Of a stretch of DNA of 17,353 bases, positions 3,048 through 17,353 are shown in pieces. This stretch comes from Ruminococcus sp. AM22-13 (GTDB lineage: Bacteria > Bacillota > Clostridia > Lachnospirales > Lachnospiraceae). Positions within the stretch are counted from its first letter, which is position 1, and each line of letters starts with the position of its first letter. Under the pieces are notes generated by a model that did no database searches, was not told the DNA's origin, and saw only the letters and a list, made by a program, of their open reading frames with translations. The position numbers and the translations under genes were made by a program. Where the stretch lies: contig NZ_QRIL01000046.1 in assembly GCF_003471165.1 (NCBI RefSeq), positions 1-17,353 on the forward strand, in the 5' to 3' direction.

Positions 3048-3051
3048 GGTT

Positions 3052-4431
3052 TTACAAAGAAGGAAGTTTGTTATGAGAAGATCTTTGTATTTCAGGAGCA
3101 TCCTGTTTGAGATATTTGGACAGGTTTTGATGTATCAATTCCAACTCTTTTATTTCTTGCTTAAAAGAAACGTATTGAGTATTTAGTGATTCCTTTCTGG
3201 AAATAAGATCTGAAAGTTGCTCTTGTAACTTATTGGAATTAAGATGCTTTAGATCCATGCCATTTTCCTGTAAAATATGTTCAGCACCCGCGAAAAGAAT
3301 AATTTGAGATTCATATTTACGGAAATAACGATCTGGATCTTTGGAGCTTTTATAATGGTCGTCGTAAATTTTATTTTTCTGATATTGTTCGGCATATTTT
3401 AGCATTTCTCGAAGATGGCGTATCTGAGACTCGAGAGAAACAACAGAGGTATTTACCTCTTTTTGCTGCATATGTAACAAGGCTATGCGGTCTTCAAGTT
3501 CTGAAAAATTATGTAGATTATGTGTGAACATCTTGTTATATTCAGCAGAGACAATTTTTAAATTTTCCTTATTTGCCCATTTCTGAAGTCCAATGTTTCC
3601 TGCTATATTGGGAGTGTTGGTGTCTATTAACTTATTACGAACAGAAGGAACAGTAGTTCTGTGAAGCTTATTATTAATGCGTTCTTTGATACGTTCCTTA
3701 GTAAAGTTCTTTCCTAAAGATTTAGCACTTCCACGCACTGGACGGGACATATCGGGAGAACGAAAGGTAATGTATTTTCTGCTGTTTTCGCCAAATTCTG
3801 CGTTTTTTATTTCATATCCTTTAGCTTCCATAAATGTAAGAAATTCTGAATAAGTGGAAACGATTCGGATTGTCTGGTTGATATCTTTTCGCAGCTGCGC
3901 TTTTTTACTGGATTCAGATTTATTTGCAGCCCATTCATTGTATTTCATTCCCTTTTTACCATTTGGCATAATTGTGGACAGGTTATGTTCCTGGCATAAA
4001 GTGTCGCTGAGATTTCGTATTTTCCAGTAATTCTTTTTACAGTCATGGTAATGAGAAAAAGTGATGTTATCTGCAGAACAGAAAATTAAATGGTTATGTA
4101 CATGACCTTTATCAGTGTGTGTTGTCAGAACATAGGAGTATTTTCCCTCCAGTAAGCGATCCGCAAGTTCTCTGCCGATTTGATGGGCTTCTTCATAGGA
4201 AACTTCACCAGGGGAAAATGCCTGAATCAGATGAAATGCCTTATTTGTATTGTGCGGATCTCTGCAGTCATGTGTATGATCCAAAGTGTATTTAAAGTCA
4301 AGAACGGCTGTTTCGGGAGAGCAGGCAAAGGAAGAAATATATAGATTCTGGTCAGTTTTATCTGGATTGCAGATGTATTCTATTGCTTTATCAACGGTTG
4401 TTTTGATACCATGGATTTTTGTAACTGCCAT
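3052..4431 (-). CDS. Relaxase/mobilisation nuclease (PF03432, MOBP-like)
   Basis: 459 residues. Relaxases nick one strand at oriT and carry it into the recipient through a conjugation channel. The N-terminus MAVTKIHGIKTTVDKAIEYI fits the family, with Y19 the likely catalytic tyrosine. The metal-binding histidine motif is HTDKGHVHNH at 105-114. From about residue 290 the protein is charged and helical, with heptad-like stretches suggesting a coiled coil. The ATG lies inside the 3' end of mobC (52-base overlap), so the two are translationally linked; AAGGAG lies 14 bases upstream, which is rather far and may reflect coupling. No type IV secretion genes accompany it, so transfer would need a helper element. 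The family is clear; the subfamily assignment is tentative. Confidence 0.9.
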   Translation of the reverse strand: MAVTKIHGIKTTVDKAIEYICNPDKTDQNLYISSFACSPETAVLDFKYTLDHTHDCRDPHNTNKAFHLIQAFSPGEVSYEEAHQIGRELADRLLEGKYSYVLTTHTDKGHVHNHLIFCSADNITFSHYHDCKKNYWKIRNLSDTLCQEHNLSTIMPNGKKGMKYNEWAANKSESSKKAQLRKDINQTIRIVSTYSEFLTFMEAKGYEIKNAEFGENSRKYITFRSPDMSRPVRGSAKSLGKNFTKERIKERINNKLHRTTVPSVRNKLIDTNTPNIAGNIGLQKWANKENLKIVSAEYNKMFTHNLHNFSELEDRIALLHMQQKEVNTSVVSLESQIRHLREMLKYAEQYQKNKIYDDHYKSSKDPDRYFRKYESQIILFAGAEHILQENGMDLKHLNSNKLQEQLSDLISRKESLNTQYVSFKQEIKELELIHQNLSKYLKQDAPEIQRSSHNKLPSL

Positions 4432-5030: not shown

Positions 5031-5060
5031 TATAAACATAAATAGAACTGTGAGAAGTGG

Positions 5061-5089: not shown

Positions 5090-5120
5090 CAGAGCAAGAA
5101 ATCGTAAGTGAGGGATAAAT

Positions 5121-5480: not shown

Positions 5481-5533
5481 TTAAAATTAAAAAGGAAGCC
5501 TTTCAGAAAAATTTCTGATCGGCTCCCAGGTAT

Positions 5534-6032: not shown

Positions 6033-6092
6033 GAAATCACTCCAATCATACGGTTTATAAATAGTGTATGTTGTTCAGAAGTATCTATCCAT

Positions 6093-6121
6093 AGTTTAGC
6101 ATAGAATAGGCAGCAATACAA
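6093..6121 (-). promoter_or_regulatory. Promoter candidate for the toxin-antitoxin operon
   Basis: On the minus strand, TTGTAT (6116-6121), a 17-base spacer and TAAACT (6093-6098) precede the antitoxin by about 60 bases. The spacing is ideal and the hexamers are moderate matches. Confidence 0.4.
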
Positions 6122-6126
6122 TTGAA

Positions 6127-6390
6127 TTATTTTGCAGGAGCGTCCGTCAGACCAAGAAGATATTCGCAGGAAACATTAAATACTTCGGCCAGTGCGACAA
6201 CTTCGTAGTCGGGAACGAAACGTGTGCCTTGTTCAATTCGCAGGATTGCCAGATCATTAAAATCATATCCTGCAAGTTGTAATTTGGCAGCGAGTGTTTT
6301 CTGAGTAAGATTATGAGCCTTTCGTAATTCTTTTACCCGTTGTCCTATTCTGTTTTTATTGTTCGTTTTTTTATCCCAATAAATAATCAT
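6127..6390 (-). CDS. Small XRE-family transcriptional regulator (87 residues)
   Basis: Most of the protein is one Cro/C1-type helix-turn-helix domain (about residues 14-80): IGQRVKELRKAHNLTQKTLAAKLQLAGYD, then NDLAILRIEQGTRFVPDYEVVALAEVFNVSCEYLLGL. The insert between helices 2 and 3 (LQLAGYDFND) is the variant common in small Lachnospiraceae XRE proteins. I chose ATG at 6390 because GAGG lies six bases upstream; a TTG four codons earlier has no suitable site. It is divergent from the gene at 6562, and the space between holds two copies of a 15-base repeat that may be its operators. Confidence 0.85.
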   Translation of the reverse strand: MIIYWDKKTNNKNRIGQRVKELRKAHNLTQKTLAAKLQLAGYDFNDLAILRIEQGTRFVPDYEVVALAEVFNVSCEYLLGLTDAPAK

Positions 6391-6406
6391 TCTGATCCTC
6401 AAAAGT

Positions 6407-6474
6407 TTCTAAAGATGAAGTATTATTATTGATTTTAAGGAAAAATATTGTTACTATACTTCTAAAGATGAAGT
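6407..6474. repeat. Paired 15-base repeats, candidate operators
   Basis: TTCTAAAGATGAAGT occurs at 6407-6421 and 6460-6474, 53 bases apart, about five helical turns. The second copy extends to ACTTC-TAAAGAT-GAAGT (6458-6474), an imperfect dyad. The pair lies between the divergent XRE gene and the 6562 gene and overlaps a likely plus-strand -10 (TATACT, 6455-6460). Confidence 0.6.
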
Positions 6475-6561
6475 TTTTGGAAAGTTTATTTGATTTTTGA
6501 AATAAGAAAATGATAATGCTGCCTGTAATGAGAAATAATTCTAATGAGAGGTGGAAAGAAG

Positions 6562-6897
6562 ATGAATGAATTTTATGAAGCAGTATCGAATTTATTTGAG
6601 GAATTGCGCTGTGACTCCGGAGAAAGAGAATATACAGTACAGCCGGAAGAATGGAAAGAAGCAGAGAAGAATTTGAAACAAATACAAAAGAAGCTGCCAC
6701 TACATCTGGAAAAAATCCCAGAGCGTGAGCAGAATTTCTGGAATAAATATCTGGATCAGTTAGAACATTTCCATTATGAAGAGGAGCAGCGGGCTTATTA
6801 CCAGGGAATGATGGATGTAGTTGAGTTTCTTATTAATATAGGGGCAATAAAGAAATCCACGAATGTTAAGAGAATGATAGAAAAATATGCACGTTAA
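6562..6897 (+). CDS. Small acidic helical protein of unknown function (111 residues)
   Basis: I do not recognise a named family. The protein is almost all predicted helix and strongly charged: MNEFYEAVSNLFEELRCDSGEREYTVQPEEW, a lysine/glutamate middle, and a C-terminal HYEEEQRAYYQGMMDVVEFLINIGAIK. There is no signal peptide or membrane segment. ATG at 6562 is preferred over the in-frame ATG six codons earlier because AGAGGTGG lies between them at good spacing. The gene is followed by a strong terminator, so it is a monocistronic unit, and it is divergent from an XRE regulator that may control it. Proteins of this kind often accompany mobilisable elements in gut Clostridia (memory, unverified). 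Confidence 0.7.
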   Translation: MNEFYEAVSNLFEELRCDSGEREYTVQPEEWKEAEKNLKQIQKKLPLHLEKIPEREQNFWNKYLDQLEHFHYEEEQRAYYQGMMDVVEFLINIGAIKKSTNVKRMIEKYAR

Positions 6898-6902
6898 GAG
6901 TG

Positions 6903-6930
6903 GCGGTATGGGAAACCATACCGCTTCTTC
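6903..6930 (+). terminator. Rho-independent terminator
   Basis: A perfect 9-bp stem GCGGTATGG/CCATACCGC (6903-6911 and 6916-6924) with a GAAA tetraloop, followed by TTCTTC, ends the 6562-6897 transcript. Confidence 0.8.
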
Positions 6931-6960
6931 AGAATAATTCAGATAGAATTCAAATGAATT

Positions 6961-7320
6961 TCAGGGATCTTGTTTATCGTGGTCTGTAGGAATTTTATAT
7001 GTACGCAGATATGCTTCTACGATAGCAAGAATAGCGGTAATTTGCTCATCGTTGCATTTTGACAGGTACATGAGCAGGCGTTGATAATCAAGATCATCTG
7101 TATGATTGTTTGGATAAAACAATGGTTCAGGAGGAACATTTAAAGCGCGTACCAGTTTTCTGATTTTATGAAAACTGGGAACTCGGCCCCCATTTTCAAT
7201 TTCCTTTAAATATCGGCTGGACATTTCTGCTTTTTCAGCTAATTCTTCATAAGTCAATTTTTGCTCGTGTCGGGCGTTCTTAAAAAACAATCCCAGTTCT
7301 TTATCTGTTTGTTTTGGCAT
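6961..7320 (-). CDS. XRE-family transcriptional regulator (119 residues)
   Basis: A Cro/C1-type helix-turn-helix covers residues 8-67: LGLFFKNARHEQKLTYEELAEKAEMSSRYLKEIENGGRVPSFHKIRKLVRALNV. The C-terminal 50 residues form helices (QRLLMYLSKCNDEQITAILAIVEAYLRTY), probably for dimerisation. ATG at 7320 is preferred to one five codons earlier because GGAGGTG lies seven bases upstream of it. It is divergent from the sigma-factor/excisionase/integrase module, at the position where Tn916-like and Tn1549-like elements commonly carry a repressor. A role in controlling excision genes is inference. Two ATATTTCACT repeats lie just upstream of it. Confidence 0.85.
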   Translation of the reverse strand: MPKQTDKELGLFFKNARHEQKLTYEELAEKAEMSSRYLKEIENGGRVPSFHKIRKLVRALNVPPEPLFYPNNHTDDLDYQRLLMYLSKCNDEQITAILAIVEAYLRTYKIPTDHDKQDP

Positions 7321-7375
7321 ATGATACACCTCCATGTTTAGTGTATAGTTCCCTTTCTTGAAAGAAAATGAACTA

Positions 7376-7408
7376 ATATTTCACTAAAAAAGAGGGTGAT
7401 ATTTCACT
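7376..7408. repeat. Direct repeat ATATTTCACT x2, candidate operators
   Basis: Exact 10-base copies at 7376-7385 and 7399-7408, 23 bases apart, lie 55-90 bases upstream of the XRE start at 7320. The spacing of about two helical turns fits cooperative regulator binding. Confidence 0.5.
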
Positions 7409-7620
7409 TTTTAAAAGACATATAAAATTCTGAATTTCCGTAAAACAGATCCGGAGGTATTGGAAAGATTAAGAATTTTATTGTCTGGTATCACATCCGT
7501 CATTACGTGACGGATGAAATAGATAAATAGTTCAAAAAAGCAAATAAATTTCTTTACCTCAAAAAGTGAATTATATGCCACAAGAAATGATGGCAAAATA
7601 TTATCTTTTGATATAAATAG
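7409..7620. other. AT-rich intergenic stretch with a strong isolated hairpin
   Basis: No convincing gene. The main structure is a perfect 9-bp stem CATCCGTCA/TGACGGATG (7494-7502 and 7508-7516) around TTACG, without a U-tract on either side. Short frames such as one ending HIRHYVTDEIDK have no RBS and no recognisable family, though they may be a decayed gene. Confidence 0.5.
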
Positions 7621-7659
7621 CGTCCGATGGGTTAAAAACTACCCATTAGGACGTTTTTT
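7621..7659 (+). terminator. Rho-independent terminator with no gene upstream
   Basis: CGTCC-g-ATGGGT pairs with ACCCAT-ta-GGACG around a TAAAAACT loop and is followed by TTTTTT. It would end a plus-strand transcript arising in the gene-less 7409-7620 stretch. Confidence 0.7.
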
Positions 7660-7702
7660 ATATACCTCAAAATACAGGAAAAACAATTTTCTCGTATTTA
7701 TT

Positions 7703-7768
7703 AAGAAATTTTTTAAAAATTTCTTCCCACACCCCGACAAATGCACTCATCCGTTTGGGATATGTGTG
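7703..7768 (+). promoter_or_regulatory. Structured leader of the sigma-factor operon
   Basis: Two structures lie before the sigma-factor gene. One is a perfect AT-rich palindrome of 23 bases (7703-7725, arms AAGAAATTTTT/AAAAATTTCTT, one-base centre). The other is a hairpin made of CACAC/GTGTG (7728-7732, 7764-7768) enclosing CCC..CAAA and TTTGGG. I recall a CACACCCCGACAAATGCACT-type leader at this place in Tn916/Tn1549-like elements. Its function (attenuation or RNA stability) is not evident here. Confidence 0.5.
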
Positions 7769-7824
7769 AAGGGGAAGCAAGAACTTTGCTTATTGCCTAC
7801 CGGCGGGGAAGGAGGTGAACTCTT

Positions 7825-8262
7825 ATGGAGCAATCCTCTTTTCAAGATGAGCAGACAGTCAGACATCAGTTTGATTCTCTGTGCAAGTTGGCATTGAAAA
7901 GTGAAGTTATTAATTATGAAAAGCATATGGCATATCGCCAGAAGTATGAAGTGATGTTGTCAGAATTATCAGAAAAGGAGTTGAGCAGACTTTTTATAAT
8001 GGATGAGCATGAAATGGAAACACATCGTTTTCAGGTCCTGGGTTACGACATAGAAGTCAAAGATGCATTGATTGCTGAAGCACTGCAGACACTTACTGAA
8101 AAGAAAAGGAATGTTGTGTTATTATCATATTTTATGGATATGAGTGATGCAGACATTGCCAGAGAAATGAATCTTGTACGCAGCACAATTAATGAGCATC
8201 GTAGACGATCACTGGAACTGATGAGAAAAAATATGGAGGAATCTGCAAATGAAAAAAAGTAA
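7825..8262 (+). CDS. Sigma-70 region 4-like factor (Tn916 Orf7-type)
   Basis: 145 residues. The C-terminal half (84-134) is a sigma region 4 helix-turn-helix: AEALQTLTEKKRNVVLLSYFMDMSDADIAREMNLVRSTINEHRRRSLELM. The YFMDMSD stretch and the N-terminal QF..LCK pattern match Tn916 Orf7 closely. AGGAGGTG lies seven bases before the ATG. It overlaps the next gene by 14 bases. In Tn916, Orf7/Orf8 lie upstream of xis-int and take part in the transcription cascade that activates excision and transfer; the gene order here suggests the same role. Confidence 0.88.
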   Translation: MEQSSFQDEQTVRHQFDSLCKLALKSEVINYEKHMAYRQKYEVMLSELSEKELSRLFIMDEHEMETHRFQVLGYDIEVKDALIAEALQTLTEKKRNVVLLSYFMDMSDADIAREMNLVRSTINEHRRRSLELMRKNMEESANEKK

Positions 8263-8521
8263 AAAACAGAAATGCGCATTTGATTTGCTGCCATTCCATG
8301 TTATTGAGGCAGCATCAACTGGTGATACTGAGGCAATCCAGGCAGTGTTGAAGCATTATGAAGGGTACATAACAGTTTTAGCTACCAGAAAAATGTTTGA
8401 CGAATTTGGACAGGTGCATTACTGTGTAGATGAAACTCTGCGTCAACGCCTGGAAACAAAACTGATTACTAAGACCTTGGGATTTGATACGAAATCATAT
8501 GTAAGGAAAAGTAATCAGTAA
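8249..8521 (+). CDS. Helix-turn-helix domain protein (Tn916 Orf8-type)
   Basis: 90 residues with a basic start (MKKSKKQKCAFDLLPFHVIEAA) followed by STGDTEAIQAVLKHYEGYITVLATRKMFDEFG, the conserved HYEGYI signature of the small HTH proteins (HTH_16-like) encoded after the Orf7-type sigma factor. A C-terminal ETLRQRLETKLITKTLGFD helix follows. It overlaps the sigma gene and uses a GGAGG-like site within it, indicating translational coupling. It resembles the N-terminal part of sigma factors and probably assists or modulates the upstream protein; the exact role is not established. Confidence 0.85.
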   Translation: MKKSKKQKCAFDLLPFHVIEAASTGDTEAIQAVLKHYEGYITVLATRKMFDEFGQVHYCVDETLRQRLETKLITKTLGFDTKSYVRKSNQ

Positions 8522-8675
8522 AGGGAGTATTTAATATAGATTCCTTTTCCCCTTCAGGAATTTTTGTACCTTGAAAATTGTATATTGTTTTACATACAGG
8601 ACGTGAAGATATGTAGAGCCACTAGGTAAATCCGCCATGATATATCTGCTCTGTTAATGGAGTAAATACGAGGAA

Positions 8676-8768
8676 ATGCTGAAATATAACATTGAAGTAA
8701 AGGTATGGAGCGAGAAGAATTTGACAAAATGTGCAGCAGCTGCACAGGGCGACGAAGCATATCTGTGA
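8676..8768 (+). CDS. Possible 30-residue peptide
   Basis: The frame ATG..TGA encodes MLKYNIEVKVWSEKNLTKCA followed by AAAQGDEAYL. CGAGGA lies only two to three bases before the ATG, closer than ideal. Codon use looks coding-like and the peptide has no low-complexity bias, so it may be a true small peptide or the remnant of a longer gene. It contains the 15-base palindrome at 8731-8745. Low confidence. Confidence 0.25.
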   Translation: MLKYNIEVKVWSEKNLTKCAAAAQGDEAYL

Positions 8769-8857
8769 TAATGATACTTCCAGAAAAAAGCTGGTCATAT
8801 TTAATGACGGTGCAAAACCGATGTGGGCAGAGTACTGAACTGCCACCTGTATTGTAA

Positions 8858-8911
8858 TTTTATCTGCCGATGACAGTGTATAAAATTGTAAATTGTCATG
8901 GGCAGATAAAA
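8858..8911 (+). promoter_or_regulatory. Long hairpin upstream of xis
   Basis: TTTTATCTGCC-G-ATGACA (8858-8875) pairs with TGTCAT-G-GGCAGATAAAA (8894-8911): 17 base pairs broken by one G-G mismatch, with an 18-base AT-rich loop. It ends 34 bases before the xis start. It could act as an attenuator or terminator, or as a dyad for protein binding. Confidence 0.6.
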
Positions 8912-8945
8912 ATGTTTTGTCCAAAGAGAAAAGGAGGAGAGAAGA

Positions 8946-9167
8946 GTGGCGATTAAAATTGAAAAAGGTAAGATTCCAATTTGGGAAAAATATATGCTTA
9001 CGGTGGATGAAGCAGTGCAATATTTTGGAATAGGTGAAAAGAAAATAAGGATGCTTATTTCGGAACATCTAAATTCAGAATGTTGCTTTACAGTCCAGGT
9101 GGGGTGTAAGTCATTGATTAACCGTAAGAAATTTGAGGCCTTTCTGGATCAGACTACGTCTTTGTAA
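8946..9167 (+). CDS. xis: Excisionase, Tn916 Xis-type
   Basis: 73 residues. IPIWEKYMLTVDEAVQYFGIGEKKIRMLISEH (10-41) matches the winged-helix core of Tn916 Xis (IPIWERYTLT...YFRIGENKLR, from memory), and the closing INRKKFEAFLDQTTSL is the family C-terminus. Xis bends DNA at the element ends and directs the integrase to excision. The start is GTG with AGGAGG eight bases upstream. It lies 104 bases before the integrase start, the usual xis-int order. Confidence 0.9.
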   Translation: MAIKIEKGKIPIWEKYMLTVDEAVQYFGIGEKKIRMLISEHLNSECCFTVQVGCKSLINRKKFEAFLDQTTSL

Positions 9168-9187
9168 AAAATATACGAACAATTTAG

Positions 9188-9226
9188 CACTTTAAAGTGG
9201 AAATGCTAGCCCTGGTATGATATAAT
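9188..9226 (+). promoter_or_regulatory. Integrase promoter (extended -10) with flanking palindrome
   Basis: TGA-TATAAT (9218-9226) is a good extended -10; there is no strong -35. A perfect palindrome CACTTTAAAGTG (9188-9199) lies where a -35 or operator would be. AGCCCT (9208-9213) and AGGGCT (9241-9246) bracket the -10. Transcription would begin near 9233, so int can be expressed apart from xis. Confidence 0.55.
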
Positions 9227-9271
9227 ACCTATATCGTGCTAGGGCTTCTTCGTAGAAAGGGGCGAAGACGT

Positions 9272-10486
9272 TTGGGTAAAACAAAACGTGACCAAAAACG
9301 ACGGGATAAAAAAGGTCGAATTTTACGAAACGGAGAAAGTCAGAGAAAAGATGGAAGATATGCGTTTGTATATACAGATTGTTATGGAAAGCAGAAGTTT
9401 TTGTATAGTTGGAAATTAGAGCCAACAGATTCTCTGCCAACTGGATGCAGACCATGCTTAGCTCTAAGGGAAAAAGAAAAGAATATCCAAAGAGATTTAC
9501 ATGATGGTATAGTACCTTACGGAGGAAATTTAACAGTTTTGGATTTGGTTCAAAAATACATTGGACAAAAAAAGGGGGTTCGTCATAACACTCAGGCGAA
9601 CTATGATTTTGTGATCAATATAATAAAAAAAGAAGAATTCGGAACCAGAAGAATAGATAAAATAAAATTGTCGGATGCAAAAGCATGGTTTATTAAACTG
9701 CAAGCAGATGGAAGAGGATACAGTTCCATTCACAGTGTGCGTGGAATTGTAAGACCTGCATTTCAGATGGCAGTTGAAGATGATTTACTGCGCAAGAATC
9801 CTTTTGAATTTCAATTATGTACAGTTGTCGTAAATGACAGTGTTACAAGACAGGCAATTACAAAAGAACAGGAAGAGTTATTTCTGGAGTTTATCCGAAA
9901 TGATGACCATTACTCAAAATACTATAATGGAATGTTTATTTTGTTTAAGACTGGACTTCGTATTTCTGAGTTTTGTGGATTGACAGTGAAAGATATTGAT
10001 CTTCAGGAGAGAAAAATCAATGTGAATCATCAGCTTCAGAGAACCAGAGGAATGCAGTACGTCATTGAAGATACCAAAACTTCAAGTGGAACACGAATGT
10101 TACCGATGACAGATGAAGTTTATGAATGTTTTGAACAGATTGTGAAAAACCGTAAAAAAGTAAGGGTTGAGCCGATTATAGATGGATATAGTCGATTCTT
10201 ATTTCTGGATAAAAAAGATATGCCTGAAGTAGCACTTCATTGGGAAAAACATTTTCAGTGGGCGTTAGGAAAGTATAATCGTACTCATGAGGAACAAATG
10301 CCAAAGATCACGCCTCATGTATGCAGGCATACATATTGTTCCAATATGGCGAAAGCTGGAATGAATCCGAAAGCACTCCAATATTTAATGGGACATTCTG
10401 ATATAGGGGTTACGTTAAATGTATATACGCATCTGGGATTAATTGATGCAAAAGAAGAGATGAATAGGATTGCAAAACTGGCATAG
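9272..10486 (+). CDS. int: Tyrosine integrase, Tn916 Int family
   Basis: 404 residues from the chosen TTG, nearly the length of Tn916 Int (405). The N-terminal arm-binding domain reads RRDKKGRILRNGESQRKDGR (10-29), followed by the TDCYGKQKFLYSWKL strand set. The core-binding domain is about 85-190. The catalytic set is R230 (KTGLRISE), K269 (TKTSSG), H349-x-x-R352 (TPHVCRHTY), H375 (MGHSD) and Y385 (NVYTHLG). An in-frame GTG at 9236 would nearly coincide with the predicted transcription start, whereas AGGGG lies nine bases before TTG 9272; I therefore prefer TTG. It catalyses integration and, with Xis, excision. The target may be the phosphatase-like sequence downstream (see 10702-10752). Confidence 0.92.
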   Translation: MGKTKRDQKRRDKKGRILRNGESQRKDGRYAFVYTDCYGKQKFLYSWKLEPTDSLPTGCRPCLALREKEKNIQRDLHDGIVPYGGNLTVLDLVQKYIGQKKGVRHNTQANYDFVINIIKKEEFGTRRIDKIKLSDAKAWFIKLQADGRGYSSIHSVRGIVRPAFQMAVEDDLLRKNPFEFQLCTVVVNDSVTRQAITKEQEELFLEFIRNDDHYSKYYNGMFILFKTGLRISEFCGLTVKDIDLQERKINVNHQLQRTRGMQYVIEDTKTSSGTRMLPMTDEVYECFEQIVKNRKKVRVEPIIDGYSRFLFLDKKDMPEVALHWEKHFQWALGKYNRTHEEQMPKITPHVCRHTYCSNMAKAGMNPKALQYLMGHSDIGVTLNVYTHLGLIDAKEEMNRIAKLA

Positions 10487-10543
10487 TATGATAAAATAAT
10501 AGAAAAAAGAATTAAGAATAATCTGATTATAAGGTTCTTAGAA

Positions 10544-10567
10544 AGCCTGTTTTCCAGGCTGATTATT
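10544..10567 (+). terminator. Terminator-like hairpin after int
   Basis: AGCCTG (10544-10549) pairs with CAGGCT (10555-10560) and is followed by GATTATT. Outer CTTAG/CTAAG arms (from 10537 and to 10572) extend the symmetry. It probably ends int transcripts. Confidence 0.45.
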
Positions 10568-10585
10568 ACTAAGAAGTTACTAAAT

Positions 10586-10614
10586 TTGGATAAGAAAATA
10601 TACGAATTTATGCT
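10586..10614 (+). promoter_or_regulatory. Outward-reading promoter candidate near the element 1 end
   Basis: TTGGAT (10586-10591), a 17-base spacer and TATGCT (10609-10614) point out of the element toward the phosphatase-like start at 10702. Elements that insert into the 5' end of a gene often supply a replacement promoter, which would fit. Confidence 0.35.
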
Positions 10615-10701
10615 GTGATATACAGGAAAATGACAGGATTGAAGATTATCGGAAAATGCCTGCAAACAGCGTAAATACAGCATTTCAAGGAGTTTTAAGC
10701 A

Positions 10702-10752
10702 ATGATAAGTGTGTTATTTGTCTGCCACGGCAGGATTTTCTGTTCAGAATGA
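10702..10752 (+). pseudogene. 5' fragment of a low-molecular-weight protein tyrosine phosphatase gene
   Basis: ATG with AAGGAG nine bases upstream opens MISVLFVCHGRIFCSE and then a stop. VLFVCHG is the canonical first strand and start of the C-x5-R-S/T phosphate loop of LMW tyrosine phosphatases (usual form VLFVCHGNICRSPMAE). After the glycine the match collapses and the frame ends six codons later. The break coincides with a CTGCC-AC-GGCAG palindrome. The simplest reading is a gene start separated from its body by an integration event. The fragment is short and chance resemblance is possible, but the RBS, ATG and seven-residue exact motif together make that unlikely. Confidence 0.6.
10722..10733. 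other. att: Candidate attachment core between the two elements
   Basis: CTGCC-AC-GGCAG is a short inverted repeat at the exact place where phosphatase homology stops, about 235 bases past the int stop. Tyrosine recombinases act on core sites with inverted-repeat arms. No second copy of the core is present in this window, so this is inference. Confidence 0.45.
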
Positions 10753-10812
10753 AAAGTCTCAAATCGTCTTAAATACTTCTATAAATAGCATTTCTTGTGT
10801 TCCATTCTCAAT

Positions 10813-10832
10813 TTTACCAATGATTTACCAAT
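10813..10832. repeat. TTTACCAAT x2, candidate integrase arm-type sites
   Basis: TTTACCAAT occurs at 10813-10821 and 10824-10832, 11 bases apart (one helical turn), about 80 bases right of the candidate core. On the other strand each reads ATTGGTAAA. Short direct repeats on the same helix face near an element end fit arm sites for the N-terminal domain of a Tn916-type integrase. Confidence 0.4.
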
Positions 10833-10880
10833 ATTTCTGGAGAGTCAGACTTGCAAAACCAGAATGAGGAGATTAAAAAT

Positions 10881-11258
10881 ATGAGCAAATTGAAACCAAG
10901 AATAACGGAAAACGGAATTGATTATATCCTTGTCGGAGATTACTACATCCCGGATTTGAAACTGCCGGAGGAACACCGCCCCATTGGGAAGTATGGACGG
11001 CTACATCAGGAATATTTAAGAGAAGTCCACCCAGCCAGATTGAACACATTGATATTGACCGGGGAGTTATGGACATATCTTGCAGACCTGAACGAACAGG
11101 CACAGGAACGGTTAGACATCATCATGGAACAGATGAAAACTGCCGAGGGCGTAACCGAGGAATTGAAGCGTACCCATCAAATGGAATGGGTGCAGCGTTG
11201 CAATAACATTCACAACCGGGCAGAAGAAATTGTTTTGCATGAGATGATTTATTCGTAA
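10881..11258 (+). CDS. tnpV: TnpV family protein
   Basis: 125 residues. ITENGIDYILVGDYYIPDLKLPEEHRPIGKYGRLHQEYLREVHPARLNTLILTGELWTYLADLNEQAQERLD is the standard core of TnpV proteins (PF14198), first described in the clostridial transposon Tn4451, with a helical, charged C-terminus. The family has no proven biochemical role. ATG at 10881 is chosen because GAGGAG lies upstream of it; an earlier in-frame start at 10851 has no site. It is the first intact gene right of the candidate attachment core. Confidence 0.88.
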   Translation: MSKLKPRITENGIDYILVGDYYIPDLKLPEEHRPIGKYGRLHQEYLREVHPARLNTLILTGELWTYLADLNEQAQERLDIIMEQMKTAEGVTEELKRTHQMEWVQRCNNIHNRAEEIVLHEMIYS

Positions 11259-11363
11259 TGATATGTTAAGAGTTAAGCAAATATGAAGTTGTCAAGTTTT
11301 TTCAAACAGCCTCATTGCATAGAAATGACAAACAGATTATTCTTAAAGCAGGAGGTGGCAGAA

Positions 11364-11843
11364 ATGGCAAACGAAGATAAGAAAGATTTTAATGCTATGT
11401 TGCACGACAATAAGGATATGCCAAAATTTCAAATCATTACAGACCAGAAAAGTATTGAAAAATATGGTGGCAGTAAAATGTATTTTGCACCGCCAATCGA
11501 CTATGACAAAGTAATGAAAAAAATTCCGTATGGTAAAGTGATTACCGTCGGGAAAATACGAGAATACTTTGCGGAGTTAAGTAGTGCAGATTTTACAGAA
11601 CCGATTACAGCAGGAATTTTTGTTTCTATTGTGGCATGGGCGAGTTATCAGCGTTCAGAAGATGAAACGCCTTATTGGAGAACATTGAAAGCAAACGGAG
11701 AACTAAATGCTAAATACCCAAATGGTATTGAAGCACAAAAAGAAAAATTAGAAGCAGAAGGACACACCATCATTCAAAAAGGGCGTAAAAATGTACGATA
11801 CTATGTAAAGGACTATGAAAACTCCCTCTTTGATTTGAAATAG
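11364..11843 (+). CDS. MGMT-like (alkyltransferase-like) protein lacking the catalytic cysteine
   Basis: 159 residues. The C-terminal domain from about residue 46 resembles the DNA-binding half of O6-alkylguanine-DNA alkyltransferases (PF01035): VMKKIPYGKVITVGKIREYF, FVSIVAWASYQ, TPYWRTLKANGELN and GIEAQKEKLEAEGHTI. The active-site PCHR is replaced by PYWR (103-106), so it cannot take an alkyl group in the usual way. It may act like ATL proteins, which bind lesions and pass them to excision repair, or have another DNA-binding role. Start ATG 11364 has AGGAGGTG six bases upstream; an in-frame ATG 27 codons earlier adds an unrelated tail and has no RBS. Confidence 0.82.
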   Translation: MANEDKKDFNAMLHDNKDMPKFQIITDQKSIEKYGGSKMYFAPPIDYDKVMKKIPYGKVITVGKIREYFAELSSADFTEPITAGIFVSIVAWASYQRSEDETPYWRTLKANGELNAKYPNGIEAQKEKLEAEGHTIIQKGRKNVRYYVKDYENSLFDLK

Positions 11844-11874
11844 GTAAATTTGAATTTGGCAGATGTAAAAGGAT

Positions 11875-11936
11875 TTTGACACTCATAATAAGTGATGTCA
11901 AAGCTATTTTGTAGACAATAGTGGGTGTTTTTCCTA
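11875..11936. repeat. Two inverted repeats upstream of the membrane XRE gene
   Basis: TTTGACA/TGTCAAA (11875-11881, 11896-11902), with inner TCA/TGA, is followed by TTGTAG and CTACAA arms (about 11910-11936). They lie just before the XRE gene at 11965 and are candidate operators; the first could also end the upstream MGMT-like transcript. Confidence 0.45.
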
Positions 11937-11964
11937 CAATAAAAGTGCAAGGAGGTATAGTGGC

Positions 11965-12615
11965 ATGGAGCATGATATTGGATGCAAAATCAAGGCAGCC
12001 CGAATTGAAAAAAAGCTGACGCAAGAACAGGTTGCCGAATTGTTGGGTGTGAGTCGTCAGACCATCTCAAATTGGGAAAATGAAAAATCCTATCCAGATA
12101 TTATCAGCGTCATTAAAATGAGCGAATGCTACGATGTCTCTCTTGACTATCTATTGAAAGGAGAACAAAAAATGAAAAGCTATTATGATTATCTTGAAGA
12201 AAGTACGAATGTTGTGAAAAGCAATGCCAACAGAAACAAGATTATTACGATTCTCTCCTATCTCTTGATTTGGGCGTTTGCAATGATAGTGTTCTGGTTT
12301 TTTGCAAGTGGAAGTGACGCTATGGGTTACAGTTTGATGTTTCTTTGGTTTATTCTTCCTATATCCACATTTATTGTATCTATTGTTATTGGTAAAAATA
12401 ACTTTTGGGGAAAAGGAAAATGGGCATTCACTCTTTTCTTTGGCGTAATGTATATGCTTGCTGAATATGGCACATTCAAAATGGCAAACAACATTGCTTT
12501 TAACAAACTGAATGCCCCTGACTTGGGAATGATTGTAGCCGGAGCAATAATCTCTGCAATCGGTATGTTGGTAGGTTCACTGTGGAATAAGAAACGCCAC
12601 AATCAAAAAAAATAA
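11965..12615 (+). CDS. Membrane-anchored XRE-family regulator
   Basis: 216 residues. An N-terminal Cro/C1 helix-turn-helix (6-64: IGCKIKAARIEKKLTQEQVAELLGVSRQTISNWENEKSYPD) is joined by a charged linker (68-92) to four hydrophobic helices near 93-113, 121-143, 153-168 and 186-207, ending in a basic tail. Proteins of this plan are common in Firmicutes and are thought to sense membrane or cell-surface state, but the signal is unknown here. AGGAGG lies upstream of the ATG. It lies after the MGMT-like gene in the same direction and is followed by a strong terminator. Confidence 0.85.
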   Translation: MEHDIGCKIKAARIEKKLTQEQVAELLGVSRQTISNWENEKSYPDIISVIKMSECYDVSLDYLLKGEQKMKSYYDYLEESTNVVKSNANRNKIITILSYLLIWAFAMIVFWFFASGSDAMGYSLMFLWFILPISTFIVSIVIGKNNFWGKGKWAFTLFFGVMYMLAEYGTFKMANNIAFNKLNAPDLGMIVAGAIISAIGMLVGSLWNKKRHNQKK

Positions 12616-12672
12616 GTAACAAGAAAAATCCCAACTTGTTATTCTGAAAATTTAACTGAATAACCACAGCAC

Positions 12673-12722
12673 AAACCGCTGCTACATGGAAGCTAACAAA
12701 CCATGCAACAGCGGTTTTTCTT
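12673..12722 (+). terminator. Strong rho-independent terminator
   Basis: AAACCGCTG..CATGG pairs with CCATG..CAGCGGTTT around AAGCTAACAAA and is followed by TTTCTTT. It separates the convergent XRE genes and ends the membrane-XRE transcript. Confidence 0.8.
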
Positions 12723-13528
12723 TACCGTTTTTTCCTCTGACTGATAGGCGTTCCCATTTTCTTTGATTTTTTGAGAATCCGAATCAGCCAGCGAAATTCT
12801 TCGTCTGACAGATTTTTATAGTTGATACCAAGCTGCTTGCAGTAAAGAACAACCAGCTTTTCATCCCGACTGCCCTTGAAATTTTCGACTGCTTCCAGAT
12901 TTTCTTTCAGTTCATCGGCAACGGTAGTTTGGGGTGCGCTCTCGCTGTCCTTTTTGTGGGCTTCCCGAATATCCCGGATAATGAGATTGAGGTCATCCCG
13001 TACCATGTGGCTGAAATACTCATCATCACTGATATGGGCAGCTTGCAGCACCTTTAAATGCGGGTCATCTTCGCCGGGGCGATACCGTTCAATGATTTCA
13101 TGTCGGACGGTATCGACAAGGGCATTGAGGTTCTGAATCTGCATGGTGGCAATCCCATCCACATAAATCTCAATGTCCGCAAGAAACTTGATAAAGTCCT
13201 TATGGGTGGCAAGTTCGCAGAGCAGGCGGTTGTTAATCCGACCGCTTTTCAGGAGTGCCACCATTTCATCACTCAAATGCAGCTCCCTTAATGGCGTGTT
13301 GATCTCTGTCCTGTTCTCTGACCGGCAAAAGAGATAATCGAGGGACACCCCATAAAAATCTGCCAGCAGGATAAGGTTGCCATGATTGATTTCCTTATAG
13401 TCATCTTTTTCATAACTGCCAAGAGCCGATTTTGAAATACCCGTTTGCTCTGCCAGTTCTTCCAGTTTTAATCCTTTGTTTAATCGTAAATCTTTTAGCC
13501 GTTCCTGTATTGTAGTAGCTCCGTTCAT
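12722..13528 (-). CDS. XRE-family regulator with long C-terminal domain (268 residues)
   Basis: Helix-turn-helix at about 7-66: IQERLKDLRLNKGLKLEELAEQTGISKSALGSYEKDDYKEINHGNL and LADFYGVSLDYLF. The remaining 200 residues are helical, with TPLRELHLSDEMVALLKSG, a middle section with IEIYVDGIATMQIQNLN, and a basic C-terminus. It matches the regulator usually found divergent from the Cys-rich VLP/RepA/DUF3847/MobL cluster. I prefer ATG 13528 (GGGGGAG about eight bases upstream) over one 20 codons earlier, whose codons would cover the promoter. A perfect dyad over its -10 suggests autorepression. Base composition is clearly more GC-rich than genes to the left. Confidence 0.88.
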   Translation of the reverse strand: MNGATTIQERLKDLRLNKGLKLEELAEQTGISKSALGSYEKDDYKEINHGNLILLADFYGVSLDYLFCRSENRTEINTPLRELHLSDEMVALLKSGRINNRLLCELATHKDFIKFLADIEIYVDGIATMQIQNLNALVDTVRHEIIERYRPGEDDPHLKVLQAAHISDDEYFSHMVRDDLNLIIRDIREAHKKDSESAPQTTVADELKENLEAVENFKGSRDEKLVVLYCKQLGINYKNLSDEEFRWLIRILKKSKKMGTPISQRKKR

Positions 13529-13567
13529 TGAAGCAGCTCCCCCTTTTTGACAACATATATAACCGTT

Positions 13568-13591
13568 GAATTGATTATACCATATCAATTC
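13568..13591 (-). promoter_or_regulatory. Promoter with overlapping operator for the 268-residue XRE gene
   Basis: On the minus strand TGG-TATAAT forms an extended -10 (TATAAT at 13574-13579). It is enclosed by perfect 8-base arms GAATTGAT (13568-13575) and ATCAATTC (13584-13591). A regulator bound here would block its own promoter. Confidence 0.65.
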
Positions 13592-14012
13592 CGCAATCGT
13601 GGAAATTTCTGATTTTTACCCCTGATTCCTACTTTGTGGACATACGGCACAGGGCACAAAAATGTTCTATGATACAGGTAGTTCATCGATGGATTATTCC
13701 AATCGAATGACCAGCCTGTGTGGGATATGCTTCCCTGGCGATGTAGCGCCATGACTTTTGGCAGGGATATGGAGGAACCCTGACCGAAACGAGCGTACCA
13801 AAGGGAGCGATACGCCGCTGTGAGATTCAGGGGAGGAACGACACCGGGGAGAACTGGCGAACTGACACCGAAATGATACCGAAACACGACAATCTGATAG
13901 GGGGACAGTCTACCCTATCGCTGATACTTCGGGAGATTTTAAGCGGCTCTATGGCTGTAATTTTGCCGAAAATCGCCCCGAAACCATACACTAAAACGGG
14001 AGAAAACACAAT
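13592..14012. other. 421-base GC-rich structured leader with no gene
   Basis: No convincing coding frame; antisense frames here lack RBS and family features. Structures seen are TGGCG/CGCCA around ATGTAG (about 13737-13752), GATAGGG/CCCTATC (13896-13902, 13913-13919), and a larger stem TTCGGG-a-GATTTT with AAAATC-gc-CCCGAA (13928-13940, 13969-13982). GACACCG and GATACCG motifs recur near 13840-13885. It lies directly before the mobilisation operon and may be a long 5' leader or a replication/transfer site. Confidence 0.5.
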
Positions 14013-14201
14013 ATGCCGAGAATGAGCAAAAAAAGGAAGCATGAGCTTTCCTTTTACCTCAATGACCGGGGGCGTGTCACTTACAACGAATTATGCCGGA
14101 AATGCCAGCATGGGTGCAGGCAGAGCTTCCGGGCGGTTGTGATTGACTGCCCTCATTATTTATCCAAACGAGCCAAGAAAAAGGAGGAACACACAGAATG
14201 A
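14013..14201 (+). CDS. Cysteine-rich VLP domain protein
   Basis: 62 residues, matching the small Cys_rich_VLP family (PF14194). Cysteines at 28, 31, 35 and 46 (C-x2-C-x3-C-x10-C) suggest a small metal-binding fold, followed by a lysine-rich tail (SKRAKKKEEH). The RBS GGGAG lies about eleven bases before the ATG. The last bases overlap the next start (ATGA), so the genes are coupled. The function is unknown; it is regularly the first gene of the MobL-type mobilisation cluster. Confidence 0.82.
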   Translation: MPRMSKKRKHELSFYLNDRGRVTYNELCRKCQHGCRQSFRAVVIDCPHYLSKRAKKKEEHTE

Positions 14202-14539
14202 ATTTTGAATTTATGACGATAGACACACCACTGCCGCCTTGTATGCCATTTCCCAGAGCATTGACAGGGTTTCCAGTCAGCAGCACCGCAAAGGTCATGT
14301 ACTGCCGGATGTTAGACGCTATACTATCCAAAGGGCAGGAGGACGAGAACGGAATCCTGTTTGTCTGCTTCCCTGTCACAGCCATTGCCGCAGTCCTGTC
14401 CCGCAGCCCCATGACGGTCAAGCGTTCTCTGAATGAACTGGAAACTGCCGGACTTATCATGCGGGTGCGTCAGGGCATTGGAGAACCAAACAGGATTTAT
14501 GTGCTGATACCGGGAAAGGAGGATACTGCCCTTGCCTGA
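14198..14539 (+). CDS. RepA-like winged-helix protein (replication initiator A N-terminal type)
   Basis: 113 residues. It opens MNFEFMTIDTPLPPCMPFPR, with SSTAKVMYCRMLDAILS and a winged helix at about 56-92 (FPVTAIAAVLSRSPMTVKRSLNELETAGLI), closing GEPNRIYVLIPGK. It corresponds to the N-terminal DNA-binding domain of RepA_N replication initiators (PF06970) but lacks the rest of a full initiator, so it may be an auxiliary or regulatory protein rather than a working Rep. It overlaps the VLP gene by four bases and the DUF3847 gene by eight. Confidence 0.8.
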   Translation: MNFEFMTIDTPLPPCMPFPRALTGFPVSSTAKVMYCRMLDAILSKGQEDENGILFVCFPVTAIAAVLSRSPMTVKRSLNELETAGLIMRVRQGIGEPNRIYVLIPGKEDTALA

Positions 14540-14828
14540 TACCTCAAAGCTGGAAAAGCTCAACCGGGAGTTGGAGAAAAGCGAAAAGAAACTGCGGAAA
14601 GCAATCAATGATGAAAAGGCATTGCAGCACCAGCTAAAGCAGCTTACCCGAAAGGAACGGAGGCATCGGCTCTGTACCCGTGGCGGTATGCTGGAAAGTT
14701 TTCTGCAAGAGCCGGAACGCCTGACAGATGATGATGTCATGCTGCTGTTGAAACTCATTTTTCACAGGCAGGACACGCAGGAACTGTTGAAAAAACTGCT
14801 GGAACGGGAGAAGCCGGAAAACCCTTAG
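14532..14828 (+). CDS. DUF3847 family protein
   Basis: 98 residues. A coiled-coil N-terminus (SKLEKLNRELEKSEKKLRKAINDEKALQHQLKQLTRKERRHR) is followed by LCTRGGMLESFLQEPERLTDDDVMLLLKLIFHRQDTQELLKKLL. This is the standard small protein (PF12958) encoded just before MobL-type relaxases, and a relaxosome accessory role is plausible but unproven. The start is TTG with AAGGAGGA eight bases upstream, inside the preceding gene. Its stop codon lies within the CCCTTAG/CTAAGGG hairpin that adjoins the proposed nick site. Confidence 0.85.
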   Translation: MPDTSKLEKLNRELEKSEKKLRKAINDEKALQHQLKQLTRKERRHRLCTRGGMLESFLQEPERLTDDDVMLLLKLIFHRQDTQELLKKLLEREKPENP

Positions 14829-14875
14829 TTTACTAAGGGCGCAATTATACACCACCCAGAGGTTGGTGCATTGCG
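14822..14875 (-). other. oriT: MOBQ-type oriT with nick region
   Basis: On the minus strand the sequence TTGCG/CCCTTAG (14844-14833) matches the RSF1010-type nick consensus TAAGTGCG/CCCT as I recall it, placing the cut between 14840 and 14839. Directly 5' of it on that strand is an inverted repeat: CGCAAT (14840-14845) with ATTGCG (14870-14875), and inside it CACCA (14850-14854) with TGGTG (14864-14868). CCCTTAG-TTTA-CTAAGGG (14822-14839) forms a further perfect hairpin. An inverted repeat abutting the nick is the standard MOBQ oriT plan, and a MobA/MobL relaxase is encoded 0.9 kb downstream. Confidence 0.75.
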
Positions 14876-15058
14876 TTCTCCGAAGGCTCCTCGCCGGAGG
14901 GCTGTGATTTTCCGCAGTCATGGTCTGCTCCAAATCAAACAGGGGACGCTACGCTTCCCCTGCGCTGGCTGCCGCCAGCTACCCTTTTGTGGACTTGCCA
15001 TCTGGGGACACCTTGCGTTGTAAGCTGTTCCCAGCCGACAAGTTTTACAAAAGCTCTC
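14876..15058. other. Non-coding region after oriT with two hairpins
   Basis: No gene seen. AGGGGA (14941-14946) pairs with TCCCCT (14956-14961) around CGCTACGCT, and GCTGGC-TGCC-GCCAGC (14964-14979) is a perfect 6-bp stem. CTCCG/CGGAG arms lie near 14879-14899. It is GC-rich and probably part of the extended transfer origin or its leader. Confidence 0.45.
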
Positions 15059-15087
15059 TGTACTTTGAGGGTCGAATAAAGTATAAT
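15059..15087 (+). promoter_or_regulatory. Promoter candidate for the lipoprotein gene
   Basis: TATAAT (15082-15087) with a weak TGTACT (15059-15064) 17 bases upstream, 38 bases before the ATG. The -10 is exact and the -35 is poor. Confidence 0.45.
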
Positions 15088-15124
15088 GAAGTCAATGAGA
15101 AATCGGGAGTTGGAGGTATTCACT

Positions 15125-15553
15125 ATGAAAAAGATTATAACCGTAACGCTTTGCATTGTGCTGGTTCTTCTCTTTGCCGGATGCGGAAAGAACGGCGATA
15201 CATCAAAAGTGGAAATTGATTATGGAGCATCTTCCGTTTATTCAAAAGAAGAAATAGATTCTGCCATTGAGATTATAAAAAAGCAGTTCGCTTCGTTTGA
15301 GGGCTGTGAATTGCATAGCCTTTCTTATATGCCAGATGAAGAATGCAACAATGCAGATAACATTGAATGGATGAATGATTTAAGAACGGAAGATAATAAA
15401 GAAGCCTTTACGCAATGTATTGCATTTAAAAGTAGTTTCCGTTCGCCAAAAAACGGCGGCGGTGCATGGGAGGCGAACGAAGAATACACTTGGTCATGGT
15501 GGCTTGCACGGTGTGAAGGTGGAGAATGGAAGTTAATGACGTGGGGGTATTGA
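15125..15553 (+). CDS. Small lipoprotein of unknown function
   Basis: 142 residues. The N-terminus MKKIITVTLCIVLVLLFAGC is a lipoprotein signal peptide with lipobox FAGC and lipidated cysteine C20. The mature part has DSAIEIIKKQFASFEGCELHSLSY, then DNIEWMNDLRTEDNKEAFTQCIAFKSSFRSP, and a tryptophan-rich end (YTWSWWLARCEGGEWKLMTWGY). It resembles small secreted alpha/beta folds such as the DUF4829/NTF2-like group, which I cannot confirm. GGAGGT lies seven bases before the ATG. It lies between oriT/DUF3847 and mobL, more AT-rich than both neighbours and with its own promoter and terminator, so it is probably an inserted cargo gene. Confidence 0.82.
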   Translation: MKKIITVTLCIVLVLLFAGCGKNGDTSKVEIDYGASSVYSKEEIDSAIEIIKKQFASFEGCELHSLSYMPDEECNNADNIEWMNDLRTEDNKEAFTQCIAFKSSFRSPKNGGGAWEANEEYTWSWWLARCEGGEWKLMTWGY

Positions 15554-15647
15554 TAAGCGTAAGAACTTCCAGTTTGCCACTCACACATCGGGTCAACTTG
15601 TCCCGAACTTTTACAACTTAATACCCGCCGCCCACACAGCGGCACAC

Positions 15648-15681
15648 CAAGCAGGAAATCTGAAAAAGGTTGCCTGCTTTT
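15648..15681 (+). terminator. Rho-independent terminator before mobL
   Basis: AAGCAGG and CCTGCTT form a 7-bp stem around AAATCTGAAAAAGGTTG, followed by TTTTTTC. It ends about 67 bases before the mobL start, so mobL must rely on read-through or a promoter I do not see. GCCGC/GCGGC (about 15627-15643) and GGTGG/CCACC (about 15700-15716) hairpins flank it. Confidence 0.65.
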
Positions 15682-15747
15682 TTTCTGCCCGAAATGAGGT
15701 GGTAAAACGCCACCCCATCCACCAATTACCGAAAGGAGGGACACGAA

Positions 15748-17328
15748 ATGTCCTGCCCACACAACGAAATCACGATTGTTCAGCGCAGCCAGCGGCAGTC
15801 TGCGGTTGCCGCCGCTGCTTACCAAAGCGGCGAAAAGCTGTTCTGTGAATACGACCAGCAAGTGAAGCACTACCCGGAAAAGCGTGGTATTGTCCACAAT
15901 GAAATTCTGCTCCCGGCAAACGCCCCACGGTCGTATGCAGACCGCAATACTTTATGGAACGCCGCCGAAGCGGTGGAAAAGCAATGGAACTCCCAGCTTG
16001 CAAGGCGGTGGGTGCTTACCATCCCAAGAGAGATACCACCCGACCAGTATGCTGTCCTTGTCCGGGAGTTTTGTGAGCAGCAGTTTGTTTCCAAAGGCAT
16101 GATTGCTGATTTTGCAATCCATGACCCCCATCCGCCGGGACACAATCCCCACGCCCATGTCATGCTCACTATGAGGGCAATGGACGAACATGGAAAATGG
16201 CTTCCCAAGAGCCGCAAGGTTTATGACCTTGACGAAAACGGGGAACGGATAAAACTTCCGTCCGGCAGATGGAAAAGCCACAAGGAGGATACGGTGGATT
16301 GGAACGACCAGAAGTATTGCGAAATCTGGCGGCATGAATGGGAGGTCATCCAGAACCGCTATCTGGAAGCCAATGACCGTCCGGAGCGTGTGGACTTGCG
16401 TTCCTATGCCAGACAGGGGCTTGATATTGTCCCCACTGTCCATGAGGGGGCTGCTGTCCGGCAGATGGAAAAGCGTGGTATCCAGACGAATATCGGAAAC
16501 CTGAACCGGGAAATCAGAGCCGCCAACAGTCTGATGAAGTCCATCCGGCAGCTTATCCAAAACCTCAAAGGCTGGATTACCGAGCTGGGAGAAAAACGGA
16601 AAGAGCTGCTTGCACAAAAAGCGGCGGAGGAAGCGACACTTCTTCCCAATCTGCTGATGAAGTACATGGAGATACGAAAGGAAGAACGGAAGGACTGGAC
16701 GAGGGCTGGACAGAACCGGGGGACTTCACAGGACTTAAAGGCAGTCAGCGAAGCCTTGTCCTATCTCCGGCAAAAGGGGCTTTCCACTGTGGAGGACTTA
16801 GAAGCGTTTCTGGAATCTTCCGGGAAATCAGCCGCAGATTACCGCAGTCAGATGAAGCCAAAGGAAGCCCGCAGCAAAGTGATTGACGGGATTCTTGCCA
16901 GCCGGACAGACTGCAAGGAATGTAAGCCTGTCTATGAGAAGTACCAGAAGATATTTTTCAAGAAAACAAAGGAGAAATTCAAACAGGAACACCCGGAGGT
17001 TGCCCGGTATGAGAAAGCCGCTGACTACCTTGCCAAGCACACGGACGATAAGGACAGTACCCAAAAGGAGCTGCAAGAGGAGCAGGAAACGCTTCTGGAA
17101 GAAATTGCAGCCCTTAAAACACCGCTGACCGAGGTGCAGGAGGATTTGAAGAAGCTGCGGGACATCCGCTACTGGGTACGGAAAGCCACCCCCGGCACAG
17201 AAGAAAGCAAAGAGCCGCCCAAGAAACAGCCTATCAAAGAAGTCTTGCAGGATAAGGCTGACGAGAAAAAAGCACAAAGAACTGTCCCGGCACAGACGAA
17301 ACACAAACAACAGGATATGGAACTTTAA
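15748..17328 (+). CDS. mobL: MobA/MobL-family relaxase (MOBQ)
   Basis: 526 residues (PF03389). The N-terminal relaxase domain starts HNEITIVQRSQRQSAVAAAAYQSGEKL, with Y25 the likely nicking tyrosine. EILLPANAP and HDPHPPGHNPHAH (125-137, with H128, H132, H135 and H137) supply the metal-binding histidines. The remainder, from about 250, is a long charged coiled-coil region (NREIRAANSLMKSIRQLIQNLK, KELQEEQETLLEEIAALK), and the protein ends in a lysine-rich tail. AAAGGAGGG lies seven bases before the ATG. The cognate oriT is proposed at 14822-14875. It nicks and pilots the element strand into the recipient using a helper conjugation system. The length is usual for the Firmicutes members and the gene looks complete. 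Confidence 0.93.
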   Translation: MSCPHNEITIVQRSQRQSAVAAAAYQSGEKLFCEYDQQVKHYPEKRGIVHNEILLPANAPRSYADRNTLWNAAEAVEKQWNSQLARRWVLTIPREIPPDQYAVLVREFCEQQFVSKGMIADFAIHDPHPPGHNPHAHVMLTMRAMDEHGKWLPKSRKVYDLDENGERIKLPSGRWKSHKEDTVDWNDQKYCEIWRHEWEVIQNRYLEANDRPERVDLRSYARQGLDIVPTVHEGAAVRQMEKRGIQTNIGNLNREIRAANSLMKSIRQLIQNLKGWITELGEKRKELLAQKAAEEATLLPNLLMKYMEIRKEERKDWTRAGQNRGTSQDLKAVSEALSYLRQKGLSTVEDLEAFLESSGKSAADYRSQMKPKEARSKVIDGILASRTDCKECKPVYEKYQKIFFKKTKEKFKQEHPEVARYEKAADYLAKHTDDKDSTQKELQEEQETLLEEIAALKTPLTEVQEDLKKLRDIRYWVRKATPGTEESKEPPKKQPIKEVLQDKADEKKAQRTVPAQTKHKQQDMEL

Positions 17329-17353
17329 CAGGCACTTGCCATTTTCAATCAGA

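Follow-up and report, generated by a model that had tools for sequence, protein, structure and literature searches.

In the 17,353-nt stretch of Ruminococcus sp. AM22-13 analysed here in full (the window), the region downstream of a Tn916-type integrase gene (int) is, with high confidence, the junction at which two integrated mobile elements meet, both stacked at a single attachment site within the 5′-end of a low-molecular-weight tyrosine phosphatase (LMW-PTP) gene, as judged from sequence comparison with related genomes. The right end of such an element carries, in order, int, a ribosome-binding site, an ATG and ten initial phosphatase codons that close with CACGGCA; insertion thereby replaces the 5′-end of the gene with the copy on the element. 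In relatives, further elements occupy the regenerated start and form tandem arrays, the intact gene coming last. In the window, element 1 would have inserted first and element 2 would have entered the restored start, with the gene body pushed beyond element 2. The features of the window are as follows.

3055..4431, minus strand: MobA/VirD2-type relaxase of element 1 (PF03432, 7.6e-34)
8946..9167, plus strand: Tn916-type excisionase of element 1 (PF09035, 6.6e-19)
9269..10486, plus strand: Tn916-family tyrosine integrase of element 1 (PF02920, 6.7e-33; PF00589, 3e-30)
10544..10560, plus strand: terminator-like hairpin just 3′ of int (fold z −2.3)
10566..10583, plus strand: TTACTAA pair with 11 bp spacing, possible right-end arm sites of element 1 (read from sequence)
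10687..10692, plus strand: ribosome-binding site AAGGAG ahead of the phosphatase start (same stretch before the intact gene in genome G001)
10702..10752, plus strand: orphan phosphatase start MISVLFVCHG, then out-of-frame RIFCSE and a stop (G001 counterpart intact)
10726..10732, plus strand: core block CACGGCA, in or next to which exchange occurs, and right boundary of element 1 (fully inside the stretch of identity in 11 of 13 units)
10733..17353, plus strand: left part of element 2, extending past the window edge (98% identity with a Eubacterium ramulus copy)
10813..10832, plus strand: left-end pair of arm-type repeats, TTTACCAAT, spaced 11 bp (copies start at 10813 and 10824)
10881..11258, plus strand: TnpV-like gene of element 2 (PF14198, 6.8e-43)
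15748..17328, plus strand: MobQ-family relaxase of element 2 (PF03389, 3.7e-89; NCBIfam MobQ, 242 bits, cut-off 200)

The original prediction had placed a ribosome-binding site, an ATG and the peptide MISVLFVCHG behind int, and all three were found where it had put them, with the int stop codon at 10486, the ATG at 10702 and only ten phosphatase codons present in the window. G001, the nearest genome compared, matched window positions 46–10732 at 98.8%; over 9236–10732 the match was 99% and ended at 10732, from where G001 continues into an intact LMW-PTP gene opening MIRVLFVCHGNICRST... (PF01451, E 1.1e-33; 117.8 bits, cut-off 23.2) with the CX5R loop CHGNICR. Likewise, G052 matched window positions 54–10732 and runs into an intact LMW-PTP gene, and in G016 a similar right end (10313–10732, 98.6%) precedes the intact gene. 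In all three genomes the counterpart of 10702–10732 opens an intact LMW-PTP gene, which shows that this segment is a genuine phosphatase start and that element 1 ends at 10732. Homology had been predicted to stop at the palindrome CTGCC-AC-GGCAG; the palindrome does lie at 10722–10733, and the boundary falls at 10732, its final G already being the first base of element 2. With the start pattern, 55 exact matches were obtained versus one with a reversed control, in 20 genomes picked for carrying such starts. In G023, the gene is preceded by an element-1-type right end (98%) whose integrase is split over two reading frames. The same genome also has two phosphatase starts separated by only 392 bp (L196, 3064–3456), an interval that lacks any ORF of 70 aa.

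Pairwise identity over the 200 bp on either side was determined for 24 junctions, representing 21 distinct loci, and the 32 pairs ranking highest in upstream similarity were inspected. Three of these were a locus against itself, two were G001 against G052 (98% on both sides), and three had 82% identity downstream; the other 24, some of which set a gene body against the next element, showed 94–100% identity upstream and 50–69% downstream. In the eight gene-to-gene pairs with unlike bodies, the right ends were 96–98% identical and the gene bodies 59–69%; for G151 versus G041 the values were 97% upstream and 59% downstream. That right ends are alike while gene bodies diverge indicates that the 5′-end of the gene comes from the element. 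The distance from int to the ribosome-binding site was mostly 160–390 bp at element right ends. This comparison leaves virtually no probability to a simple duplication or decay remnant of a phosphatase gene, produced without site-specific integration: just ten residues followed by a stop remain, as such a piece would have, yet the same core is the break point in many distinct loci, ahead of an element left end, and the upstream part tracks the element, not the gene body. A duplicated gene fragment was therefore rejected.

Insertion of element 1 into the 5′-end of the gene, as originally proposed, thus stands for the first codons, which are restored in the eight pairs and in G001, G052 and G016, and is weak for the promoter. 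The outward promoter predicted at 10586–10614 was absent from the consensus sites detected (3 sites versus a shuffled mean of 2.2), and across 33 right ends the best scores were no better than in shuffles (8.5 versus 8.7). These unfavourable consensus and shuffle comparisons removed the candidate from the evidence, and a promoter supplied by the element would be deduced solely from the restored gene.

The integrase of element 1 belongs to the Tn916 family by both domains (PF02920, 112.9 bits, cut-off 27; PF00589, 105.7 bits, cut-off 27.1), and its matches among PDB integrase chains include 6emy (1.8e-91), which we take to be the Tn1549 integrase, and 1bb8 (5.2e-24). Homologues of the element 1 relaxase at 96–98% identity were found in G001, G052 and G038. 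Two terminator-like sites were counted in the junction region versus 0.1 in shuffles, the second being the core palindrome itself. The left end of element 1 was not found, the nearest start further upstream in G001 being 115 kb off. Window positions 1–45 are unlike G001 and the match starts at 46, though the remaining element 1 is 98.8% identical. Element 1 also encodes a BlaR1-type sensor (NCBIfam blaR1_generic, 621 bits) with a penicillinase-repressor-type regulator at 318–2493, and a ParE-type toxin gene at 5537–5884 (PF05016, 3.9e-13); a few kb to the left of the blaR1-type genes, G001 has a 700-aa ORF that by eye may be penicillin-binding protein-like.

Element 2 encodes regulators between TnpV and the MobQ relaxase, and the window edge falls ahead of its integrase. 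A marginal match to an alkylguanine methyltransferase DNA-binding domain (27.6 bits, cut-off 27) was observed at 11367–11843. In E. ramulus strain 21 (NZ_JRFU01000174.1, G146:C84), which matched window positions 10697–17353 at 98%, the copy of element 2 continues with an excisionase and with a Tn916-type integrase that shares 63% identity with that of element 1, then with a phosphatase start at 17262, followed by another element of 9.1 kb and then an intact phosphatase gene at 26339. With a MobQ relaxase and, in this copy, an integrase, element 2 is a candidate IME. Each intact element thus has its own integrase of the same specificity, element 1 in the window and element 2 in its 98% relative.

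The window itself holds one junction only, and the gene-end part of the array is known from relatives. The predicted phosphatase body beyond element 2 was located there, after one further element in E. ramulus and directly in G072, G151 and G148, in which an element with an element-2 left end abuts the intact gene (that of G148 being the most divergent of the three, 76–81% where it matches the window). Same-orientation elements with a shared core between them and the gene at the end were found in E. ramulus, G038 and G072. G038 has four starts in succession with the intact gene last, and five starts each were counted in the stretches read of G029 and E. ramulus. In Blautia wexlerae MSK.20.46 (L059/L119; window 10313–11268 at 90%), an element-1-type right end independently adjoins an element-2-type left end. 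This second junction and the arrays of the single-contig genome G038 both argue against an assembly chimera, in which the source assembly would have wrongly joined two elements that share the core; assemblies do break at repeated cores and several LMW-PTP genes start at a contig edge, and we still regard a chimera as very improbable. That elements 1 and 2 form one composite, moved jointly by the integrase of either, is somewhat less remote and still improbable: the shared core would permit joint movement, and composite transfer is described for other accretions in parts of PMC5704250, yet element 1 stands alone before the gene in G001, and in E. ramulus, G038 and G072 element 2 is preceded by other elements. 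Occasional joint movement is compatible with these arrangements of two stacked, separately integrated elements.

Sequence comparison of the relatives found a common near-palindromic core, TGCCACGGCA. The identical run around the core was narrowest in G072, being exactly the 7 bp of CACGGCA, and a mismatch inside CACGGCA was found in two of the 13 two-ended units (the last unit of G038, and G044a). The intact CACGGCA in the other 11 identical runs indicates that exchange occurs in or beside it, among the codons of the catalytic loop, CACGGCA being at most a candidate for the strict overlap sequence. Tn916 is tolerant of mismatched overlaps. The integrase would act on TGCCACGGCA, whose codons form part of the catalytic loop CHGNICR, and would recognise its own element via lineage-specific paired arm repeats, located 62–80 bp inside the left end and, at the right end, about 143–168 bp upstream of the start.

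The TTTACCAAT repeats had been predicted to be arm sites, which agrees with the distribution of the pair: of 27 left ends of element-2 type, 26 had it, at 87 or 68 bp from where CACGGCA begins (the 27 comprise 21 distinct sequences and remain from 34 rows, six of the others being too close to a contig end and one missed by the pattern), and a corresponding TTTACCA pair was found at right ends in E. ramulus, G072, G038, G148 and G151. Pairs in other lineages are TACACCT, TACTACT, TTTACAA, TTTACAG, TACTACA and TAACCCA. Matching arm pairs at both ends were found in 13 of 15 integrase-bearing units versus 3 of 11 without an integrase; in the stretch searched, the remaining two integrase-bearing units had no matching pair. 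Among the 13, the copies were spaced 11 bp at the left and 12 bp at the right end in 12, and 11 bp at both ends in G045. Randomly swapped ends matched in 37% and shuffled sequences in 0.8%, the former rate being high in part because several units share one lineage.

To evaluate target specificity, the element-2 left-end pattern was searched in named species genomes and gave 31 stretches, 29 of which had an in-frame phosphatase-like start directly before the left end (that of L121 being degenerate); the remaining two, both from archaeal Methanolobus, were unrelated to phosphatase. These 29, together with the arrays in relatives, bear out the proposal that a second element of the same specificity occupies the regenerated site, and do not match the low target specificity of Tn916. 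From sequence, the integrases of these elements are Tn916-type, yet the elements are not Tn916-like scatterers. In viral contigs the left-end pattern gave no stretch, and three viral stretches, inspected at their start contexts, carry a phosphatase start. There were 56 start contexts without a gene body, at least three of which (L083, L090, L086) look chance-like by peptide.

Frequency was evaluated on the 56 best-scoring LMW-PTP loci from the genus and family of G001 (eight loci beginning at a contig edge, and those of lower score, were left out), of which the 50 with at least 400 bp upstream were counted. A same-strand Tn916-type integrase ended within 600 bp upstream in 32 of these 50 best-scoring genes, one further gene had an integrase at 2.1 kb, and none was found for 17. 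An adjacent integrase accompanied 31 of 40 CHG-codon genes versus 1 of 10 others (Fisher p 1.6e-4), an association to be taken with caution because the genomes are related and the insertion itself brings CHG. Several LMW-PTP genes were also seen to start no more than about 150 bases from the end of a contig (G049:C75, G024:C146, G076:C34, G031:C67, G058:C106 and G015:C151), as expected if repeated upstream elements break assemblies.

In a tree of 51 integrases, each of at least 330 aa, one branch comprised 31, of which 26 lie beside phosphatase starts and five elsewhere in arrays (support 94/99, the former below the 95 mark). This branch was separate from nine Tn916-type integrases located at other places in these genomes, and eight other integrases from elsewhere were more distant. 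Three start-adjacent integrases, those of G009, G028 and L171 of G022, fell outside the main branch in two lineages, which indicates that the phosphatase site was reached more than once.

No Tn916-type integrase was detected in 11 of 26 units by tblastn with the element 1 integrase, a search covering this recombinase type. Ten proteins from eight integrase-less units, chosen by eye, were scanned and gave AbiH, TIR, Fic, ImmA/IrrE peptidase (two) and SLFN/AlbA_2 types, a helicase matching the PADLOC candidate PDC-S53, and a methylase with specificity subunit; one of the ten had no match. Defence-type genes are thus present in these units, with no enrichment claimed. A 1.59-kb SLFN/AlbA_2 unit lacking a Tn916-type integrase, located between two phosphatase starts, is 98% identical core to core in G029 and G061 (L183, 3218–4832; L197, 6858–8472), with unlike flanks over the 1.5 kb compared. 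It fits a CIME-type leftover or a mobile cassette; a matching right-end repeat pair was not found for it, which favours a leftover, and its unlike neighbours do not prove mobility, because neighbours may be gained and lost. In E. ramulus, a 1.46-kb unit (L188, 5188–6651), also between two phosphatase starts, contains little beyond an AbiH-like ORF (PF14253, 1.8e-24; profile positions 80–254 of 260, perhaps incomplete). More speculatively, the LMW-PTP start of gut Bacillota could be an integron-like platform, in which several integrase lineages with private arm repeats use one core, neighbouring elements mobilise in trans small integrase-less units of one or a few genes, many of them defence-type (AbiH, TIR, Fic, ImmA/IrrE, SLFN/AlbA_2, restriction-modification and a candidate defence helicase), and each unit is read into from the outward phosphatase promoter of the one before it; we consider this extension unlikely.

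In Lachnospiraceae and relatives, mobile elements make frequent use of the LMW-PTP gene as a docking site, which accounts for stray phosphatase-like peptides in these bacteria, and the attachment core could be used for delimiting ICEs and IMEs. Since the core is common and the repeat pairs are lineage-specific, the site offers a natural test of target-choosing versus partner-choosing integrase contacts.

Accretion and 5′-end targeting are already known, while LMW-PTP as a target was not found named in the literature searched: the best-matching titles and abstracts of the open-access literature, without supplements, do not name it as an ICE or IME target, PMC5704250, PMC4701971 and PMC12904643 do not contain the word phosphatase, and PMC10763512 mentions a phosphatase for an EPS locus only. 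The FirmiData files behind PMC9092696 may list such a target. Tandem accretion of ICEs, IMEs and CIMEs at one gene-end attachment site is described in parts of PMC5704250, and the arrays here resemble those accretions, as far as these parts describe them, in that distantly related integrases of one specificity are stacked at one gene end and integrase-less leftovers retain attachment sites; they differ in the target, the 5′-end of LMW-PTP, in the up to five starts, and in the gut Bacillota hosts. According to portions of PMC4701971, streptococcal ICEs insert in the 5′-end of ftsK, rbgA or ebfC with the N-terminus of the protein kept, as here, and two rbgA ICEs and one ebfC ICE replace the upstream sequence including the promoter. 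Compared with what is given there, the gene is another one, the core lies in catalytic-loop codons, and most of the examined relatives have the site occupied. Low insertion specificity is reported in the same portions for Tn916 itself. Unlike Tn916, the present elements have one target, and like Tn916 and Tn1549 (chains 1bb8, 1b69 and 6emy), they have a two-domain integrase with the Tn916 arm-binding domain, a Tn916-type excisionase and paired end repeats. The SXT ICE sits in the 5′-end of prfC, replacing the promoter and first codons; replacement of a 5′-end is thus common to SXT and the present elements, while element, host and target are unrelated.
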